NCBI GenBank assembly: GCA_023511585.1
Contig: JAIMBF010000015.1
Span: 1 to 47,945, forward strand
Length of the DNA stretch: 47,945 nt
Reading direction: 5' to 3'
Origin: Terriglobia bacterium
GTDB taxonomy: Bacteria > Pseudomonadota > Alphaproteobacteria > Acetobacterales > Acetobacteraceae
Part shown: positions 40,361 to 47,945 of the stretch, in pieces
Layout of the letters: every line of letters begins with the position of its first letter
Numbering within the stretch: position 1 is the first letter of the stretch
Position numbers and translations under genes: made by a program
The notes under the pieces: model-generated
What the model was told of the DNA's origin: nothing
Seen by the model: only the letters and a program-made list of their open reading frames with translations
The model's database searches: none

Positions 40361-41656
40361 TCACTCTCCTTGCACCGCCGCCGGGGCCAGCCGGGCGCGG
40401 CGCTCCTGCGCGCGGCCGAGCAGCGCCGAAAGCACCAGCCAGCCCCCCGCCACCGGCAGCGCCGCCAGCGCGATCATGCCAAGCTTCAGGCCGAGCGCCT
40501 GCAATGCGTCGAACACCCAGGCATAAAGCGCATCCGAGCCGCGATACACCACGACGTCGATCAAATTCTTCGCCTTATATTTCTCTTCCCGCGCGACCAC
40601 CGTGTAAAACACCTGCCGCGCCGGGTTGGCGATGGCGTAGTTCATCCAGCGTTGCACCACCTGAATGCCGACCGCAACCGCCAGCATCGGTGCCATCGCC
40701 AGCGCCGCGAAGCCCACCAGATAAACCGCCGGCAGCGCGCTCGCCGCCGCGCCGGTTCCGAACCGCTCCAAAAGCCGCCCGGTGGCGAAAACCTGGGTGG
40801 CGAGCGTCAAAATCTGCACCGCGAGATCCATGCCGGCAAAAAGTTGCGTCTGGCGGCCGGCACCGTGCACATGCGCGGCCACCAGATGCGCCTGCTCCAA
40901 ATACAGAATCGTCGCCGCGAAGGAGACAAGGCTCACCCAGGCGCCCACACCCAGCAGATAGGGCGAGCGCACAAGCTCCGGCAGGGCCGCAAAGGCGCTG
41001 CCGCCGATCCGCGCGCCGGCCACGGCCTGCCGGCGCGGGCCGTGCAAGGCGATGGCGGCCTGCTCCAGCCGATGCGCGCAATAGACCGCAAGCTCCAGAA
41101 AGAGAATCGCGGCGATCAGCAAGTTGGTGGGGCCGAGCGGCCCCGCAAGGCCGATGGTGATCACCGGGCCGAGCAAGGCGCCCGCGGTGCCCCCCGCGCC
41201 GATAAAGCCAAAGAGGCGCTTGGCTTGTTCCGGGTCGAACACATCCGCCATGAACGACCAAAACACCGTGACCGCAAACAGATTAAACACGCTCACCCAG
41301 ACAAAAAACACGCGGGCCAGGGCAACCTTGCCCAAGCCGAGTGCCGCCAGCAGCCAGAAGATCGCCAAATTCGCGGCAAAGAAATGATACACGATAGGAA
41401 TGAATCGGGTGCGCGGCAGCCGCGCCACGAGCTCGCCGTAGAGCGGCTGCGCCAGCAGCAAAACGAGAAAGGTCGCGGTAAACAGCCACGGCAGGTTCCG
41501 CACGCCGCCGGCAATGCCCATTTGGTCGCGCAGCGGCCGCAGCACGTAATAGCCGGCGAGCAGCGTGAAAAAATACGCAAACGACCAAATCGCCGCGGCC
41601 CGCTCGGCACGCGTGCCCGGAATCGCCCAACTCAGGCCGCCGGCGCGCGCGTTCAC
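40361..41656 (-). CDS. MFS-type multi-pass transporter, resembling nucleotide (ADP/ATP) translocase family
   Basis: 431-residue membrane protein with about twelve hydrophobic helices. The N-terminal block FAYFFTLLAGYYVLRPLRDQMGIAGG and FWSFMADVFDPEQAKRLFGFIGAGGTAGALLGP resemble proteins annotated as MFS transporters or Npt1/Npt2-like nucleotide carriers; a free-living alphaproteobacterium probably uses it for something else. The start is GTG at 41656, which overlaps the upstream stop (GTGA). In the operon it sits between two Tat-exported oxidoreductases, so it may move a substrate or product between periplasm and cytoplasm. Substrate unknown. Confidence 0.8.
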   Translation of the reverse strand: MNARAGGLSWAIPGTRAERAAAIWSFAYFFTLLAGYYVLRPLRDQMGIAGGVRNLPWLFTATFLVLLLAQPLYGELVARLPRTRFIPIVYHFFAANLAIFWLLAALGLGKVALARVFFVWVSVFNLFAVTVFWSFMADVFDPEQAKRLFGFIGAGGTAGALLGPVITIGLAGPLGPTNLLIAAILFLELAVYCAHRLEQAAIALHGPRRQAVAGARIGGSAFAALPELVRSPYLLGVGAWVSLVSFAATILYLEQAHLVAAHVHGAGRQTQLFAGMDLAVQILTLATQVFATGRLLERFGTGAAASALPAVYLVGFAALAMAPMLAVAVGIQVVQRWMNYAIANPARQVFYTVVAREEKYKAKNLIDVVVYRGSDALYAWVFDALQALGLKLGMIALAALPVAGGWLVLSALLGRAQERRARLAPAAVQGE

Positions 41657-42420
41657 GGCGAGAGCGAAAGCTTCTGCTTGAGCTCCTCCGCGCTCACCGC
41701 CTGGCCGTACCCCGGCTGCCCGCGCTGGAAGCGGCGGGCGGCGGCAAGCTTGCCCACCAGCACGGGGTCGAACCCGGCATCGCGCACCAAAGCGGCCGCC
41801 ATTTCCACCGCGCCCGGATCATCCCCGGCAATCGGGATGGCGAGCCTGGGCGGCGGCCGGTTCGCCTCGCGCGCAAGGATGCGGTAATTCAGCGTGTTGA
41901 AGGCGCGCACCAGCCGCGTACCCGGCAGATATTTCTGCGAGACGATGCCGATGCCCTCGCGCTCCACCTCCTCGGCAATCGCGGCCCCGTCGCGTTGCGG
42001 CACGGCGTTGCCGGCATCCAGCACGATCTTGCCCTTCAGCGCCGGCCCGTATGTGCGGCCGAATTCCGGCAAGGCGCCGTAGGGAATCGCGAGGAAAATC
42101 ACCTCCCCGAAGGCGATTGCCTCTGCCACGCTGCCCGCATGCGCGAGCGGCCCGAGGCTCTCCACCAGGTCTTTCAACTGCTCGGGGTGGCGCGAGGCGA
42201 ACATCACCGGGTGCCCCGCCTCCACCCAGAGCTTGCCGACGGTGCTGCCAATCCGGCCCGCCCCGATCACCCCGATCGGCACCTTGGTCGGGCTTCGCCG
42301 CTCCTCTGCCCGTGCGCTTTGGGCCAAGCCCCATCCGAGGGCGAGAGAAAACGCCCCGGCGGCGCCGAGCAGCCTCCGTCGCGAGACGCGTGAGAAGAGA
42401 GGGGGTCGAAAAACCGGCAT
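41653..42420 (-). CDS. Tat-exported NADP oxidoreductase (F420-dependent reductase-like fold)
   Basis: 255 residues. SRRRLLGAAGAFSLALGWGLAQSARA is a twin-arginine-type signal peptide. A Rossmann domain follows, with GVIGAGRIGSTVGKLWVEAGHPVMFASRHPEQL, typical of the NADP-oxidoreductase F420-dependent family; the R after S in ASRHP suits NADP. Later FLAIPYGALPEFGR, KIVLDAGNAVPQRDG and LVRAFNTLNYRILA match that family, which in most bacteria lacks F420 and has unassigned roles. The ATG at 42420 follows a GGAGGAG about ten bases upstream. First gene of a four-gene unit running to 37867. Confidence 0.82.
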   Translation of the reverse strand: MPVFRPPLFSRVSRRRLLGAAGAFSLALGWGLAQSARAEERRSPTKVPIGVIGAGRIGSTVGKLWVEAGHPVMFASRHPEQLKDLVESLGPLAHAGSVAEAIAFGEVIFLAIPYGALPEFGRTYGPALKGKIVLDAGNAVPQRDGAAIAEEVEREGIGIVSQKYLPGTRLVRAFNTLNYRILAREANRPPPRLAIPIAGDDPGAVEMAAALVRDAGFDPVLVGKLAAARRFQRGQPGYGQAVSAEELKQKLSLSP

Positions 42421-42501
42421 GGCAATCGTCTCCTCCGCCGGGTGCACGGCGCTCCGCGCCGCAAGCCGGAGCTTGTGGTGAAATCCTGCGCAGCTAGGGG
42501 A

Positions 42502-43002
42502 TCAAAACGGAATTTCGTCGTCAAGATCGCCGGGCGTGGGCTCCCACGCCTGGCTGGTGCCGCGGCCGGCGCCGCGCGCGCGCTCGGTGCGGTTGTTGTT
42601 GCCTGATCGCGCCGCGCCCTCGGCGGCGGGGGTGCCGGGCGTTTCGGCGGGCCGATCCAGCAAGGTCAGCTCGCCGCGGAAGCGGCCGATCACCACCTCG
42701 GTGGTATATTTGTCCTGGCCGGACTGGTCGGTCCATTTGCGGGTCTGCAGCGCGCCCTCCACGTAGACTTTGCTGCCCTTGTGCAGATACTTCTCGGCCA
42801 GCTCGCCGAGCCGCTCGTTGAAGATCACCACCCGGTGCCATTCGGTGCGTTCCTTGCGCTCGCCGCTTTGCCGGTCGTTCCAGCTTTCGCTGGTGGCCAC
42901 GGAAAGCTGCACGATTTTCGCGCCGTCCTGGGTGGTACGCACCTCGGGGTCACGGCCCAGATTGCCGATGAGAATCACCTTATTCACTGTTCCTGCCATC
43001 AT
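42502..43002 (-). CDS. ssb: Single-stranded DNA-binding protein
   Basis: 166-residue SSB. The OB-fold core is seen in [35 protein letters not shown] and [31 protein letters not shown]; a Gly/Arg/Asn-rich linker follows; the tip DDEIPF is the acidic tail that recruits replication and repair proteins. Two adjacent ATG codons (43002, 42999) may start it. It is followed on the same strand by the Tat oxidoreductase operon after 81 bases but is probably a separate unit. Confidence 0.97.
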
Positions 43003-43376
43003 ATGCTCACCCGGTTGGGTGCCTTTTGGTTCATAGTTTTTCCGCTTTCGTTCTCATCCCCCTCTCTGCCTGCAGGGGCGGATCGGAGCCCCACATCACT
43101 CGCCGGACTTGTGTGGGGTCCCGAAGAGAGCCGGTGAGGTGCCCGCCACCATATCGCGTCTGCCGCCCACGGGCCAGAGCGGATTTGCCGAAACCGTGCC
43201 CCAAAGCGCGTGTTCCGCCCGCGGCCCGGCCCTGGGGCCTATTCGGCCCTCGATCGGACGCCCTTTGCCCCGCTCCTCTCCGCCCCGGCGGCGCACGCGG
43301 TTTTCCGCGCGCTTTTTTTCGCGCACGCACGGCGCAGCGCCTGCGCCGGGTGCTCATGGAACCGGCACGTTTTCTC
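43003..43376. other. Gene-free region between ssb and arsR with a strong hairpin
   Basis: No convincing coding sequence is seen here. A strong hairpin lies at 43084-43123: arms CGGAGCCCCACA and TGTGGGGTCCCG (seven perfect central pairs CCCCACA/TGTGGGG, extended by a wobble and a one-base mismatch) around a 16-base loop. It could belong to the ssb leader (minus strand) or to a small RNA ending at the plus-strand terminator at 43296-43319. No Rfam family is recognised. Confidence 0.4.
43296..43319 (+). terminator. Intrinsic terminator upstream of arsR with no obvious gene before it
   Basis: Stem CGCGG (43296-43300), loop TTTT, stem CCGCG (43305-43309), which can be extended by GC past one mismatch, followed by a run of seven T (43313-43319). 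It is oriented for plus-strand transcripts, yet the only plus-strand gene upstream within 23 kb is the one ending at 19862. It either shields the arsR promoter or ends an unannotated RNA. Confidence 0.6.
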
Positions 43377-43425
43377 TTGACACGCAACCTTACGGTTGCC
43401 TATTAATAGGCAACCTCTTGGTTAC
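43377..43425 (+). promoter_or_regulatory. arsR promoter and palindromic operator
   Basis: A perfect -35 TTGACA (43377-43382) is followed 18 bases later by TATTAA (43401-43406). The -10 lies in the centre of a perfect 22-base palindrome (43394-43415; half-site GGTTGCCTATT). The same half-site core recurs as GCAACC at 43384-43389 and GGTTAC at 43420-43425, giving four alternating half-sites across the promoter. Occupation by the ArsR protein encoded just downstream would block polymerase, so self-repression is likely. Confidence 0.75.
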
Positions 43426-43449
43426 GTTATATCGTCAAGACAAATCACG

Positions 43450-43779
43450 ATGGGAACGATCGATGACGACGCCGTCTTTCGCGCTTTGGCAGACGCCAAC
43501 CGTCGCCGTTTGTTGGACCGGTTGCACCGGAAAAACGGCCAGACGCTCGGCGAACTTTGCGAGGGGCTGGAGATGACGCGCCAAGCGGTTGCCAAGCATC
43601 TGAAGGTTCTCGAACAGGCCAATCTCGTCTCCTGGCAACGGCGAGGCCGGGAGAAACTGCACTTCATCAACCCCGTTCCGATTAACGCCATCGCCGAACG
43701 TTGGATTCGAAAATTCGAGCGCCGTCGCTTGGCCGCGCTTTCCGCACTCAAGAACAAACTGGAAGGAGAAAACCGATGA
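43450..43779 (+). CDS. ArsR-family transcriptional repressor
   Basis: 109-residue winged-helix regulator. DAVFRALADANRRRLLDRLH is the classic ArsR N-terminal block, and TLGELCEGLEMTRQAVAKHLKVLEQANLVSWQRRGREKLHFIN the helix-turn-helix and wing. No CxC metal motif is seen, so this is the non-metal branch usually paired with a SRPBCC/AHSA1 protein. The ATG at 43450 starts the family block; the frame is open 18 codons further upstream, through the operator. Its stop overlaps the next gene by four bases (ATGA). Self-regulation through the palindrome at 43394-43415 is inferred. Confidence 0.9.
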   Translation: MGTIDDDAVFRALADANRRRLLDRLHRKNGQTLGELCEGLEMTRQAVAKHLKVLEQANLVSWQRRGREKLHFINPVPINAIAERWIRKFERRRLAALSALKNKLEGENR

Positions 43780-44237
43780 CAAATAAAGGCAGCAGCTTTG
43801 TTTACGTCACCTACATCCGCACCACACCCGAGCGTTTGTGGTCGGCGTTAACCGGCAAGGAATTCGGGCAGCAGTATTGGCGCGGCGCCTCTCCCGAAGC
43901 CGATTGGAAACTCGGCGGATCGTGGAGGCTCATCCGTCCCGACGGCCAAGTGAACGATATCGGCGAGATCGTCGCCTTTGAGCCCTTCAAGCGTTTGAGC
44001 ATCCGTTGGCGTAATGAGTTCAGGCCCGAACTGAAAGCAGAGGGATGGTCGCTCTGCACTATGGAAATCGAGCCCGTGGACGAAGTCGTAAAACTTACGC
44101 TGACCCACAGCATCGAACGCGAGAGCTCCAAGTTCATCGAGGCCGTCTCCGGCGGCTGGCCGCTGATTCTTTCGAACCTGAAATCGTTGCTCGAAACCGG
44201 CTCGGTCGGCTCGGGGCCCATGCTGTGTCGGGGATGA
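43776..44237 (+). CDS. SRPBCC (AHSA1-like, START-fold) domain protein
   Basis: 153-residue protein of the activator-of-Hsp90-ATPase-like branch of the SRPBCC fold, a hydrophobic-ligand cavity. Signatures are VYVTYIRTTPERLWSALTGKEFGQQYW, KLGGSWRLIRPDGQVNDIGEIVAFEPFKRLSIRW and the C-terminal GGWPLILSNLKSLLETG. The start overlaps the arsR stop, so the two are one operon. This ArsR-SRPBCC pairing is widespread and is suspected to sense or handle small hydrophobic molecules; the ligand is unknown. Confidence 0.88.
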   Translation: MTNKGSSFVYVTYIRTTPERLWSALTGKEFGQQYWRGASPEADWKLGGSWRLIRPDGQVNDIGEIVAFEPFKRLSIRWRNEFRPELKAEGWSLCTMEIEPVDEVVKLTLTHSIERESSKFIEAVSGGWPLILSNLKSLLETGSVGSGPMLCRG

Positions 44238-44351
44238 GCGTGCAAAGTTGCAAGCAAACGAACCCGGCCCGATGACATCTTAAGAACGATCATCACGGCG
44301 GAGGCGATTGAAAATGTGTTGGTTCGCCTTTGCCTTCTCTTTTTTATTGCG
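44238..44351. other. Gap between the SRPBCC gene and the CRISPR locus
   Basis: 114 bases with no gene. It holds a weak hairpin, AGGCGA (44302-44307) with TCGCCT (44324-44329), and a run of six T at 44340-44345 ten bases further on. That is too loose for a standard terminator but may end the arsR transcript. No leader-like or anti-repeat sequence is evident, although GACATC at 44274-44279 recalls part of the repeat. Confidence 0.3.
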
Positions 44352-44434
44352 GCTGCGGTTTGCGCCCAGTCAAACGTGCCTTAACGGCACGTTTGACGAC
44401 ATCGCTATAATTGCCTCATGCCGCGTGCGGCGTT
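44352..44434 (+). repeat. Hairpin-bearing CRISPR repeat variant, unit 1, with 23-nt spacer
   Basis: An 83-base unit. It starts with the first 16 bases of the array repeat (GCTGCGGTTTGCGCCC) and its repeat part ends at 44411 with the last 14 (GACATCGCTATAAT). The six middle bases GCATCA are replaced by one base plus a 29-base perfect hairpin: arms GTCAAACGTGCC (44369-44380) and GGCACGTTTGAC (44386-44397), loop TTAAC. The 23-base spacer (44412-44434) is shorter than the usual 30 and itself can fold (GCCGC/GCGGC). It differs from unit 2 at only two positions (44368 and 44385). The spacing between the repeat's -35-like and -10-like boxes is broken here. Confidence 0.85.
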
Positions 44435-44517
44435 GCTGCGGTTTGCGCCCGGTCAAACGTGCCTTAATGGCACGTTTGACGACATCGCTATAATTGCCTC
44501 ATGCCGCGTGCGGCGTT
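44435..44517 (+). repeat. Hairpin-bearing CRISPR repeat variant, unit 2, with identical 23-nt spacer
   Basis: Direct tandem copy of the previous 83-base unit. Hairpin arms are at 44452-44463 and 44469-44480, with loop TTAAT. The spacer at 44495-44517 is identical to that of unit 1. The two differences are G for A at 44451 and T for C at 44468. The next base begins the first intact repeat. The tandem copy must have arisen by duplication of repeat plus spacer after the hairpin was gained. The role of the units is unknown. Confidence 0.85.
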
Positions 44518-46599
44518 GCTGCGGTTTGCGCCCGCATCAGACATCGCTATAATAGCTATCACAGTATAATCCTCTTACTATTTGCTGCGGTTTGCGCCCG
44601 CATCAGACATCGCTATAATTGCCAGTATGGTAGTAAATATACCATAATGGCTGCGGTTTGCGCCCGCATCAGACATCGCTATAATTGCGCAATTCCGCTA
44701 TTTGGGCTTTTATGGGCTGCGGTTTGCGCCCGCATCAGACATCGCTATAATAATAGAATATGCTCATAAACGGCCAAATTTGCTGCGGTTTGCGCCCGCA
44801 TCAGACATCGCTATAATAATGTGCGCCATTGCGGATATGGTGCTCATGCTGCGGTTTGCGCCCGCATCAGACATCGCTATAATAGTCGCAATTCTGCGTA
44901 CGCTGTGGGCGGAGCTGCGGTTTGCGCCCGCATCAGACATCGCTATAATTGGGACGTTGCGAAGGCGTTGTGATTGGGTGCTGCGGTTTGCGCCCGCATC
45001 AGACATCGCTATAATGCAAGTTCGCCGAGGCCTCTGCGTCGATCGGCTGCGGTTTGCGCCCGCATCAGACATCGCTATAATGGAATTCGTGGTGGATGGA
45101 CCCGATCCATCGCTGCGGTTTGCGCCCGCATCAGACATCGCTATAATCCCTGGGGGCATCTTACCCGCGAGAATGTCGCTGCGGTTTGCGCCCGCATCAG
45201 ACATCGCTATAATCCGGCAAGGTGCCGCTGTTCGTGGCGATAAGCTGCGGTTTGCGCCCGCATCAGACATCGCTATAATCGTCACCGTGAACGAAACAAT
45301 CGGAAGCGTGCTGCGGTTTGCGCCCGCATCAGACATCGCTATAATTCCTGCAGAAGGAATACCACCCGGAAGTCCGCTGCGGTTTGCGCCCGCATCAGAC
45401 ATCGCTATAATTAGGTATTCGCTCATTGCTTCTCTCCTTTAGCTGCGGTTTGCGCCCGCATCAGACATCGCTATAATCGCGAACGCAATATCCGTTGCTT
45501 GTGGTTGGCTGCGGTTTGCGCCCGCATCAGACATCGCTATAATCCAGATATCGAAACATTAAGTGGTTCCGTAGCTGCGGTTTGCGCCCGCATCAGACAT
45601 CGCTATAATATTACGTAAAAGAACCATGCATCACCGCCTGCTGCGGTTTGCGCCCGCATCAGACATCGCTATAATCTTCATTAGATAGGAAAGTAGACGA
45701 ATGCCGCTGCGGTTTGCGCCCGCATCAGACATCGCTATAATAAGAGGAGTGCAAGAAACTTCTCAATTCGGGCTGCGGTTTGCGCCCGCATCAGACATCG
45801 CTATAATCGGAGCGCCTGGCAGTATGGGCGGGCTGCCGCTGCGGTTTGCGCCCGCATCAGACATCGCTATAATTATCCAAAATGAGTTTGTATCTTACTG
45901 CATGCTGCGGTTTGCGCCCGCATCAGACATCGCTATAATTGGTAAGGTATTAGATGAACACGTTTCTCTGCTGCGGTTTGCGCCCGCATCAGACATCGCT
46001 ATAATCGAGCGATATAAGGATGTTATCCTAGATCAGCTGCGGTTTGCGCCCGCATCAGACATCGCTATAATCGTTTCGTATCAACAACAATAAACGCAAA
46101 AGCTGCGGTTTGCGCCCGCATCAGACATCGCTATAATCACGCCGTTCGAGGGAGATCGGTGGCGTCAGCTGCGGTTTGCGCCCGCATCAGACATCGCTAT
46201 AATCCGCATGCGCTTGCCTGCCTTGATGCGCGCGCTGCGGTTTGCGCCCGCATCAGACATCGCTATAATCTTCGCAGCGAGCGCTGCGTTGACCCGGCTG
46301 CTGCGGTTTGCGCCCGCATCAGACATCGCTATAATCGATTTCTGAGAGTGATGTCGGCACCCTCGGCTGCGGTTTGCGCCCGCATCAGACATCGCTATAA
46401 TGCCGAGCAAAACGGGGGCTGTTGGACCGTTGCTGCGGTTTGCGCCCGCATCAGACATCGCTATAATTCAGCGGGCGAGCGTTGTTTGATGCCCACGGCT
46501 GCGGTTTGCGCCCGCATCAGACATCGCTATAATGGAGACGACGATCGATATGTTGTGGCGGACGCTGCGGTTTGCGCCCGCATCAGACATCGCTATAAT
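44518..46599 (+). CRISPR. Type II-C-like CRISPR array: 32 identical 36-bp repeats, 31 spacers of 30 bp
   Basis: Repeats start every 66 bases from 44518 to 46564 without exception, and all 32 copies appear identical by eye. Each begins GCTGCGGTTTGCGCCC and ends CAGACATCGCTATAAT, with GCAT between. Length and wording are those of alphaproteobacterial type II-C repeats. The 3' end TATAAT with TTGCGC 16 bases before it makes a promoter in each repeat, as known for Neisseria meningitidis, so crRNAs would be read on the plus strand, towards cas2. All spacers are 30 bases and no two are alike. Many are AT-rich (for example 1-4, 16-19, 21-24), others GC-rich (25-31). No spacer was seen to match elsewhere in the window. 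No leader longer than 50 bases separates the array from cas2. Confidence 0.98.
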
Positions 46600-46620
46600 C
46601 GCCTTAGCATAAAGCACGGA

Positions 46621-46671
46621 ATCAAAAAGAAAAATCCCCGGCCCGGCTCAAAAAAGTTCCAGCTGGGCCGG
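46621..46671. terminator. Bidirectional terminator-like hairpin between array and cas2
   Basis: Arms CCGGCCC (46638-46644) and GGGCCGG (46665-46671), extended by GCT/AGC across a wobble pair. On the minus strand the hairpin is followed by GGATTTTTCTTTTTG, a good intrinsic terminator for the cas operon. On the plus strand it is followed by a weaker CCTTTTC and could stop array transcripts. The stem overlaps the last seven codons of cas2, whose stop is at 46648-46650. Confidence 0.65.
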
Positions 46672-47001
46672 AGCCTTTTCTGGGGATTTCCTCCGTTTTC
46701 CCACATACACCTCAATCCGCGCAAACTGCGCATCCGTCACCGTCAAAAAGCGAACCTCACCCTCGGCCGGCACGCGCGCGCCCATCCGCCGAATATGCGC
46801 CGCCGCGCTCTCGCGGCTCGCACAATGCCGAAAATACACGCTCAACTGCATCATGGCAAACCCATCTTCCAGCAAATCCTTGCGAAAACGCGCATAAGCC
46901 CGACGCTGCGCCTTGGTCTCCATCGGCAAATCAAACAACGCAAACACCCACATGCTGCGCCACGCAATGGGGTCAAGCAGCGGAGGGCGTGGGCGCCTCA
47001 T
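46648..47001 (-). CDS. cas2: CRISPR-associated endonuclease Cas2
   Basis: 117 residues from ATG 47001, or 101 from ATG 46953. Cas2 dimerises and bridges two Cas1 dimers in the spacer-integration complex. The ferredoxin-like start MWVFALFDLPMETKAQRRAYARFRKDLLEDGF with the conserved Asp and the YFRHC block match type II Cas2. The start at 47001 is preferred because AAGAGG lies just upstream and type II-C homologues have about a dozen residues before the MWVF strand. It then overlaps the cas1 end by 29 bases. Downstream lies the terminator and the array, which is read from the opposite side. Confidence 0.92.
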   Translation of the reverse strand: MRRPRPPLLDPIAWRSMWVFALFDLPMETKAQRRAYARFRKDLLEDGFAMMQLSVYFRHCASRESAAAHIRRMGARVPAEGEVRFLTVTDAQFARIEVYVGKRRKSPEKAPAQLELF

Positions 47002-47917
47002 CGTCATCCTCTTCGGCCGCCGGCAACCCCGCAGGCCCCTCCGGCAAGCGCAGAAGAACCTTCCGCTGCGCAAAGCTCTCGGCAAGCGAAGCCGCCGCCC
47101 GCTGCAACGCAAGCGAAAGCGGCATCGCCTGTCCATCCATCGCCACCCCCACCTGGAGCACCCCGAGAAGATGCGCCTTGCGGGTGCGATCGAGCTCCCC
47201 TTCCGCCATCCCGGCGCGCCAGAGTTCCCAGGCGATCCCATCCACAAACGGGCGGAACGGTTCCATCAAATCGCTGGCCAAGGCAAAGGCATCGCCGCGA
47301 TTGGCATGAAACACGCCAAGGCCCGCCAAAAGCCCGGCCCCCACCACCGCCCGCGCCGTGGCCGCGCGCAGCACCGCATAACCGTAGTTCAGTAGATGGT
47401 TCGGCGGCTCCCCCGCCCGCTCGCGCCGAAATGCCGGGCCGAACAGAAGCGGCCAGTACCGTTGCGCCGCCTGCGCTTCCAGATTGTCGGGGTCTCCGGA
47501 GCGAACGCGCGCGGCCATCGGCCGAAGCCCGCCATGGTGCCCGGCCGTGCGCTCCAACAAATCCGCCTGCCGTCGCAGCTTGCAGGCAACGATGGCCTGC
47601 CAAAGCCGTTTGGCAAGCGGGCGCGGGCAAGCCAACTGCTGGCGCAACCGTTCGCCCGCCAGGGTATGTGCCGCATACGGCAGCAAAACGCCGGCGGGCA
47701 GATGATCCGGCCCGCAAATCACCACCGCAACTTTGGCTTCCGCCAGAGCGGCAAGCAAGGTGTGGGTGTAGGTCACTTGCGGGTTATCCACCACGAGCAA
47801 GGCCAGGTCTTCGATCGGAACCGTGGGCGCGGTGCCGTCTTCGCGCGCCATCACAAGCTGGCGATGGCGGAACGAAAGGCGCCCGGCGCTGGAGATTTCA
47901 ACGGTTCGGGTACTCAT
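46973..47917 (-). CDS. cas1: CRISPR-associated integrase Cas1 (type II)
   Basis: 314-residue spacer integrase. The N-terminal beta domain has AGRLSFRHRQLVM and PIEDLALLVVDNPQVTYT, and the C-terminal helical domain holds the metal-binding catalytic set Glu147 (NLEAQAAQRYW), His204 (FHANRGDAF) and Glu219 (ASDLMEPFRPFVD). The spacing matches Streptococcus type II Cas1 (Glu148, His205, Glu220). The C-terminus is acidic (EEDDDEAP). The ATG at 47917 overlaps a TGA in another frame (ATGA), the likely stop of cas9. It works with Cas2; in type II systems Cas9 and tracrRNA also take part in choosing spacers with the right PAM. Confidence 0.96.
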   Translation of the reverse strand: MSTRTVEISSAGRLSFRHRQLVMAREDGTAPTVPIEDLALLVVDNPQVTYTHTLLAALAEAKVAVVICGPDHLPAGVLLPYAAHTLAGERLRQQLACPRPLAKRLWQAIVACKLRRQADLLERTAGHHGGLRPMAARVRSGDPDNLEAQAAQRYWPLLFGPAFRRERAGEPPNHLLNYGYAVLRAATARAVVGAGLLAGLGVFHANRGDAFALASDLMEPFRPFVDGIAWELWRAGMAEGELDRTRKAHLLGVLQVGVAMDGQAMPLSLALQRAAASLAESFAQRKVLLRLPEGPAGLPAAEEDDDEAPTPSAA

Positions 47918-47945
47918 CGCGCAGGCGTCACGCGGCCGATGGGGT
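47914..47945 (-). CDS. cas9: Possible last codons of cas9 (rest outside window)
   Basis: On the minus strand the edge of the window is open in one frame for nine codons (PIGRVTPAR), ending in TGA at 47916-47914 that overlaps the cas1 start as ATGA. In type II-C loci cas9 immediately precedes cas1 on the same strand, often with such an overlap, and several Cas9 proteins end in a short GRV-containing strand. Nine codons are too few for identification; the call rests on synteny. Confidence 0.4.
   Translation of the reverse strand, partial: PIGRVTPAR

Follow-up and report, generated by a model that had tools for sequence, protein, structure and literature searches.

A tandemly duplicated, hairpin-interrupted extra repeat at the cas-distal end of a putative type II-C CRISPR array

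In the window (the whole 47,945-nt stretch of DNA analysed here), the CRISPR array ends, on the side away from its cas genes, in two tandem 83-nt units whose repeats are each interrupted by a perfect hairpin. The hairpin-interrupted pair is confirmed on the sequence of the draft assembly, where its copies are distinct at two bases. We read it, with a probability of about one half, as an extra repeat that was disrupted by a hairpin and then duplicated, the formation of extraneous crRNA (ecrRNA) probably being lowered. The units are probably an unusual variant of a known extra-repeat theme, in which a damaged end repeat weakens the production of a useless guide RNA. The question how II-C systems keep Cas9 from being wasted on a guide from the spacer-less extra repeat has been raised only recently, and a published survey left 71 of its 260 systems, about a quarter, unexplained (PMC12080349). 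The mutation analysis in that work removed repeats differing in length by 2 nt or more, so a hairpin-interrupted extra repeat would have gone uncounted; it is a testable member of the survey's blind spot for length-altered repeats. We found no earlier description of a hairpin inside the extra repeat in the open-licence literature that we searched.

Each unit is made up of GCTGCGGTTTGCGCCC, a single base (A or G), a palindrome of 29 nt (perfect stem of 12 bp, 5-nt loop), GACATCGCTATAAT and a 23-nt spacer. Sequence comparison and repeat search recover both units, at 44352-44434 and 44435-44517, 98% identical and in tandem at the cas-distal end, as the initial annotation had them. On the plus strand, the interrupted repeat of unit A, which is the first ('extra') repeat of the array, spans 44352-44411 and is followed by spacer a (44412-44434), a self-complementary 23-mer (GCCGC GT GCGGC). 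That of unit B spans 44435-44494 and leads into spacer b (44495-44517), identical to spacer a, after which comes the first normal repeat. The stem search places hairpin A at 44369-44397 (loop TTAAC) and hairpin B at 44452-44480 (loop TTAAT), neither being assigned to a strand. The first 16 and the last 14 bases of the repeat are unaltered in both units, just as annotated, and the shared spacer is indeed foldable: its predicted folding energy is -7.7, compared with an average of -3.5 over the last 24 nt of the normal spacers, and four of those 31 fold more strongly. A further statement, that six central bases of the repeat had been replaced, is accurate for unit A and needs correcting for unit B. 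There the single base is a G, as in the consensus, so that unit B keeps 17 bases of the 5' part and only five have been replaced. The two bases that distinguish A from B are this single base 5' of the hairpin and one base of the loop.

The palindrome pattern, with up to three mismatches allowed, occurs twice in the window and in none of 100 shuffles. Hairpins A and B are the sole perfect stems of at least 10 bp (loop 3-8) in the window, and 60 first-order Markov sequences contained on average 0.95 stems of at least 10 bp and 0.15 of at least 12 bp. One insertion-replacement event followed by tandem duplication would be the simplest account of the two units; the earlier point that drift would not build a perfect stem twice is better read as one such event, later copied. 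The accompanying argument, that the stem is conserved while a loop base differs, is weak. Two substitutions placed in 83 nt both miss the 24 stem bases with P = 0.50, so they give no sign of selection.

The normal part of the array (44518-46599, plus strand) comprises 32 identical 36-nt repeats and 31 spacers, all of 30 nt; each repeat terminates in GCTATAAT and has a -10-like TATAAT at its 3' end. Beyond it, on the minus strand, lie cas2 (46648-46953; TIGR01573, PADLOC Cas2_II; start placed at the onset of the profile match) and cas1 (46973-47917; TIGR03639, 259.5 bits; PADLOC Cas1_II). The genome is a 3.14-Mb draft in 201 contigs, and the contig of the window stops just past the cas1 start. 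Contig C40 of this genome (locus L013) ends in 77 nt identical to those that close the window, and on it lie the beginning of cas1 and a 1053-aa Cas9 (TIGR01865, 637.5 bits), so that profile matches were obtained for Cas1, Cas2 and Cas9 alike. No profile match to csn2 or cas4 was found in the five neighbouring proteins (L013:3-488; window 43776-44234, 43450-43776, 42505-43002 and 41656-42447). Gene content, repeat form and array layout, rather than a Cas9 tree, make this by prediction a type II-C system. Directly upstream of the cas9 start on C40 (L013 719-744) is a 26-nt perfect match to repeat positions 9-34. Read divergently from cas9, this anti-repeat leads into several stem-loops and then a strong hairpin of terminator-like form, and the whole is a good tracrRNA candidate. 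With a tracrRNA candidate beside cas9, it is unnecessary to invoke, as the initial annotation did among its options, an anti-repeat RNA read from the minus strand of the hairpin units. No known RNA family matched positions 41500-47945 at E ≤1. The protein at 43450-43776, adjoining the cas-distal array end, is an ArsR-type regulator; PADLOC Csa3 profiles match it as well (E 4e-14), probably because of a shared helix-turn-helix domain.

II-C arrays take up spacers at their last, cas-proximal repeat; their first repeat, the oldest, is the 'extra' one and would yield ecrRNA (Feussner et al. 2025, PMC12080349). Three countermeasures are known, namely mutation of the extra repeat, a terminator placed upstream and a hairpin that covers the guide, with tests in C. 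jejuni (PMC12080349). In that species every repeat closes with an extended -10 box, and transcripts begin at the fifth position of each spacer (PMC3656092). Relatives of the window's array follow the same polarity. Sixty-four other arrays have a cas-distal flank of 400 nt or more; in 28 of them the first repeat carries at least two mismatches, as opposed to 5 of 1531 non-first repeats across the 88 parsed arrays (window included), which identifies the cas-distal repeat as a relaxed extra repeat. Because the degenerate first repeats mark the cas-distal end, we place the hairpin units at the trailer end (oldest, transcription-upstream and cas-distal), in the extra repeat, with the direction of transcription taken from the repeat form and from published II-C arrays. 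This polarity makes it unlikely that the units block or anchor integration, another of the proposals made at the outset, since acquisition occurs at the opposite, cas-proximal end (PMC12080349) and the relatives' degenerate first repeats agree.

The reading that we favour can be laid out as follows. In the terminal extra repeat of a II-C array, a 29-nt palindrome would have taken the place of five to six central bases, and the altered end unit would then have been duplicated in tandem. In a transcript entering the array from upstream, the stable hairpin would cut the tracrRNA pairing of the extra repeat in two, and extraneous crRNA from the hairpin units would likely be poorly made or poorly used. 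Calculated pairing energies are consistent with this. Against the anti-repeat region the consensus repeat forms a 28-bp duplex with an interaction of -44.5 kcal/mol, while the 60-nt hairpin variants reach -28.3 and -30.8 kcal/mol, weaker than the consensus in both cases. Their duplex consists of two arms, between which the hairpin stands out as a side stem, and both halves are still able to pair. Taken over its first 24 nt the consensus gives -24.3 kcal/mol; the value for unit A, cut off after its hairpin, is -12.2. The pairing loss comes from the interruption and not from the stem, because 200 shuffled inserts of the same composition weaken pairing as much (mean -25.3, sd 3.4). In addition, positions 1-16 equal the consensus in both units, which leaves the Cas9-facing first ~15 nt unchanged. 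Changes in that segment of extra repeats are a published tendency ('most mutations') and no strict criterion (PMC12080349). That the first 16 bases, which face Cas9, are intact is nonetheless the chief objection to reading the units as a plain 'inactivated repeat'. Among the options of the initial annotation, a structured cap or insulator ahead of the first crRNA is the best fit and sits well in the published frame of ecrRNA suppression (PMC12080349); the intact positions 1-16 and the equal effect of shuffled inserts tell against the favoured reading.

Comparison with known systems brings out both the kinship and the oddity of the units. As in II-C extra-repeat mutation (PMC12080349), the altered repeat is the first-transcribed, oldest and cas-distal one, its calculated tracrRNA pairing is weaker and the -10 end is kept, the TATAAT being retained in units A and B. 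With this -10 end and a -35-like match in unit B, promoter function may persist despite the 24 extra bases that, as the initial annotation pointed out, the insert puts between the promoter boxes. The published mutations, however, lie mostly in the first 15 nt (PMC12080349), whereas here a 29-nt hairpin replaces five or six central bases and positions 1-16 are intact. The II-C strategy of an upstream hairpin or terminator over the ecrRNA guide (PMC12080349) has a possible likeness in the terminator-like hairpin with a U-run upstream of the array and in the self-folding spacer before the normal repeat; the hairpin of the units, in contrast, lies inside the repeat and not upstream of it. The leader-repeat hairpins of II-A and type VI systems (Liao 2022, cited in PMC12080349; PMC13187072) also sit at the extra repeat, where they lower extraneous crRNA, but there the leader pairs with the repeat and here a self-contained hairpin breaks the repeat apart. 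Finally, an altered oldest repeat is common to degenerate trailer repeats in general, which differ in having scattered substitutions in place of an inserted perfect palindrome and a tandem duplication.

The relatives were sampled through a Cas1 search (E ≤0.001), which gave matches in 31 of 147, 76 of 397, 3 of 7, 68 of 385 and 87 of 398 genomes, in overlapping sets; many matches were weak and to other Cas1 types, and 31 of the 87 in the last set were above the family cut-off. From these, 118 stretches were taken (23 + 31 + 38 + 26), 27 without and 91 with an array, or 92 with the window included. Four arrays were dropped before counting: in L140, L121 and L152 the repeat had been delimited wrongly, and L154 is apparently turned around, its repeat reading opposite relative to cas1 compared with the other arrays. 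This left 88. In 65 of them (window included) the cas-distal flank is 400 nt or longer; arrays outside the flank counts are cut by, or lie near, contig ends. A scan for split repeats required both 13-nt repeat ends with up to two mismatches, so that more decayed repeats would escape it. Among the 88 parsed arrays, only the window has a hairpin inside a repeat, and the hairpin-bearing edge repeats in several II-C arrays that were to support a function did not turn up. The other cases are a short insertion (L090), a repeat one base shorter (L130) and an insert of about 1.4 kb (L133). An apparent split repeat in the dropped L152 proved to be just two neighbouring units. In L090, whose Cas1 is 78% identical to the window's and whose array contains a long N run, the insertion is G+C-rich and lies in the second repeat from the cas-distal end.

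These results bear most directly on neutral decay, which we consider quite possible, if short of an even chance. Under this account the oldest repeat, being weakly constrained, suffered a chance lesion (deletion plus a fold-back or template-switch insertion) and was duplicated by slippage or recombination, without any function. It is favoured by the broad degeneracy of first repeats (28 of 64), by the uniqueness of the hairpin-in-repeat case, by the different short insertion found in the second repeat of the relative L090, by the two A/B substitutions, which say nothing of selection, and by the shuffled inserts, which cost equal pairing. It sits less easily with the palindrome itself, a clean perfect stem between unaltered repeat halves, since decay in the other arrays mostly erodes positions 1-12 (106 of 168 mismatches in the 28 degenerate first repeats). 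Nor does either arm resemble the repeat by eye, so that a simple fold-back copy of the repeat would not yield the palindrome. Carried by one genome only, the insert may have been selected or may be tolerated decay; Feussner et al. for their part could not attribute extra-repeat mutations to selection (PMC12080349). For the reading of a disrupted extra repeat with lowered ecrRNA, we infer the reduction of ecrRNA in the cell, selection for that reduction and the palindrome's mode of arrival.

The flanks of the arrays bear on the published idea of a 'helix over the guide' (PMC12080349). Across 49 arrays (window included), the 400 nt that precede the first repeat contain 11 hairpins of at least 12 pairs and with an energy below -22. 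Counted to the first repeat, they stand at -5, -4, -2, -1, -1, 1, 3, 4, 14, 146 and 162 nt, a negative value meaning that the stem runs into the bases of the first repeat. Eight of the 11 are thus within 5 nt, which sharpens the idea; at least eight falling in a ten-base band under uniform placement has P = 2e-11, with arrays taken as independent and the band picked post hoc. Sixteen further arrays added one more flush hairpin (L166), bringing the total to 9 of 64 arrays, window excluded. The nine (L050, L089, L091, L094, L099, L125, L133, L137 and L166) have 13-27 pairs at the first repeat; Cas1 identity to the window's is 80% for L089, 73% for L091 and 48% for L094. Between 12 nt ahead of the first repeat and 14 nt inside it, none of the nine shows four or more consecutive T, so that the hairpins resemble covers of the ecrRNA guide more than U-tailed terminators. 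When flanks are divided into 50-nt bins, energies below -30 kcal/mol occur beside the first repeat in 8 of 49 arrays and in 0 of 196 of the next four bins. The 50 nt past the last, cas-proximal repeat are also below -30 kcal/mol in 5 of 49 arrays, so strong hairpins mark both array edges, which argues against specificity to the first repeat. A first repeat with fewer than two mismatches accompanies 7 of 9 flush hairpins and 29 of 55 other cases, a difference that is not significant (Fisher P = 0.28).

The window's own upstream hairpin falls below the limits of this count. It lies on the plus strand at 44297-44346, ends five bases before unit A and has a predicted RNA fold of -20.2 kcal/mol, with an 11-bp main stem and an imperfect inner part followed by TTCTCTTTTTTA. 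A simple consensus scan, with a loop limit of 8, does not list it. The hairpin could block read-through into the array. The short 23-nt spacer before the first normal repeat is self-foldable, and if transcription started from its fifth base, as in C. jejuni, the result would be a 19-nt guide, itself able to fold. Under the reading of a disrupted extra repeat, terminator-like hairpin and spacer would act in the same direction as the interrupted repeat. Two points qualify the lowering of ecrRNA: a crRNA with a short guide could still arise at spacer b, which precedes a normal repeat, and a working upstream terminator would possibly leave no ecrRNA to suppress. One could go further and envision a fourth route of ecrRNA silencing in II-C systems, in which a self-contained hairpin in the extra repeat acts with the upstream terminator and the self-folding short spacer and has been tandemly amplified into two inert 'cap' units that separate outside transcription from the first real crRNA. 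We think this extension rather unlikely.

That the palindrome is a mobile or dispersed element (REP-like, MITE-like or the joined ends of a deleted insertion sequence) that landed in the repeat centre is improbable. Element insertion at this place does occur, as array L133 illustrates: about 593-2052 nt after its first repeat, a II-C repeat is split at its centre by the ~1.4-kb insert, which has inverted-repeat-like ends and an apparent 8-nt target duplication. In the genome of the window, however, the palindrome (up to three mismatches) has no third copy, both copies being in the array end units, and it is found in 0 of 146 other genomes, all relatives; the multicopy dispersed palindrome for which own and related genomes were to be searched was not found. 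A single arm with up to one mismatch occurs at 21 sites, or 17 without the four array copies, compared with 16 for a reversed-pattern control. Exact scans for the 11-bp stem with a 3-8-nt loop, which diverged copies would escape, gave nothing in viral contigs and one match in a species-genome collection, a terminator-like hairpin straight after a stop codon in an Algiphilus draft. No target-site duplication is visible by eye around the palindrome. The small mobile palindrome suggested by the initial annotation is therefore unsupported.

Least probable of all is a regulatory element, either a promoter-adjacent operator bound by a protein or a scaRNA-like product with a truncated, structured guide: the perfect dyad does adjoin the -10 box on its upstream side, unit B acquires by sequence match a -35-like ATGGCA at 16-nt spacing to that box, the 23-nt spacer with a normal repeat behind it could give a short-guide crRNA, and CRISPR-linked scaRNAs exist in F. 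novicida and N. meningitidis (PMC13431127), but a palindrome found nowhere else in the genome (up to three mismatches) leaves no second operator and, within the same limit, the spacer matches nothing in the genome outside the two units. The spacer also has no exact match in viral contigs, and a phage-derived or self-targeting origin was rejected on these grounds. Searches by BLAST gave six phage records for the array, all weak (E 0.7), and two weak plasmid matches for 44352-44553 (E 0.2 and 0.6). Palindromic spacers were also considered as a cas-distal trait and discarded, the longest stems being spread along the arrays in the 732 spacers checked. In L065 and L092, the first visible spacer is palindromic (8-bp stems, 3-nt loops) and lies at the cas-distal edge, where the two contigs break off.
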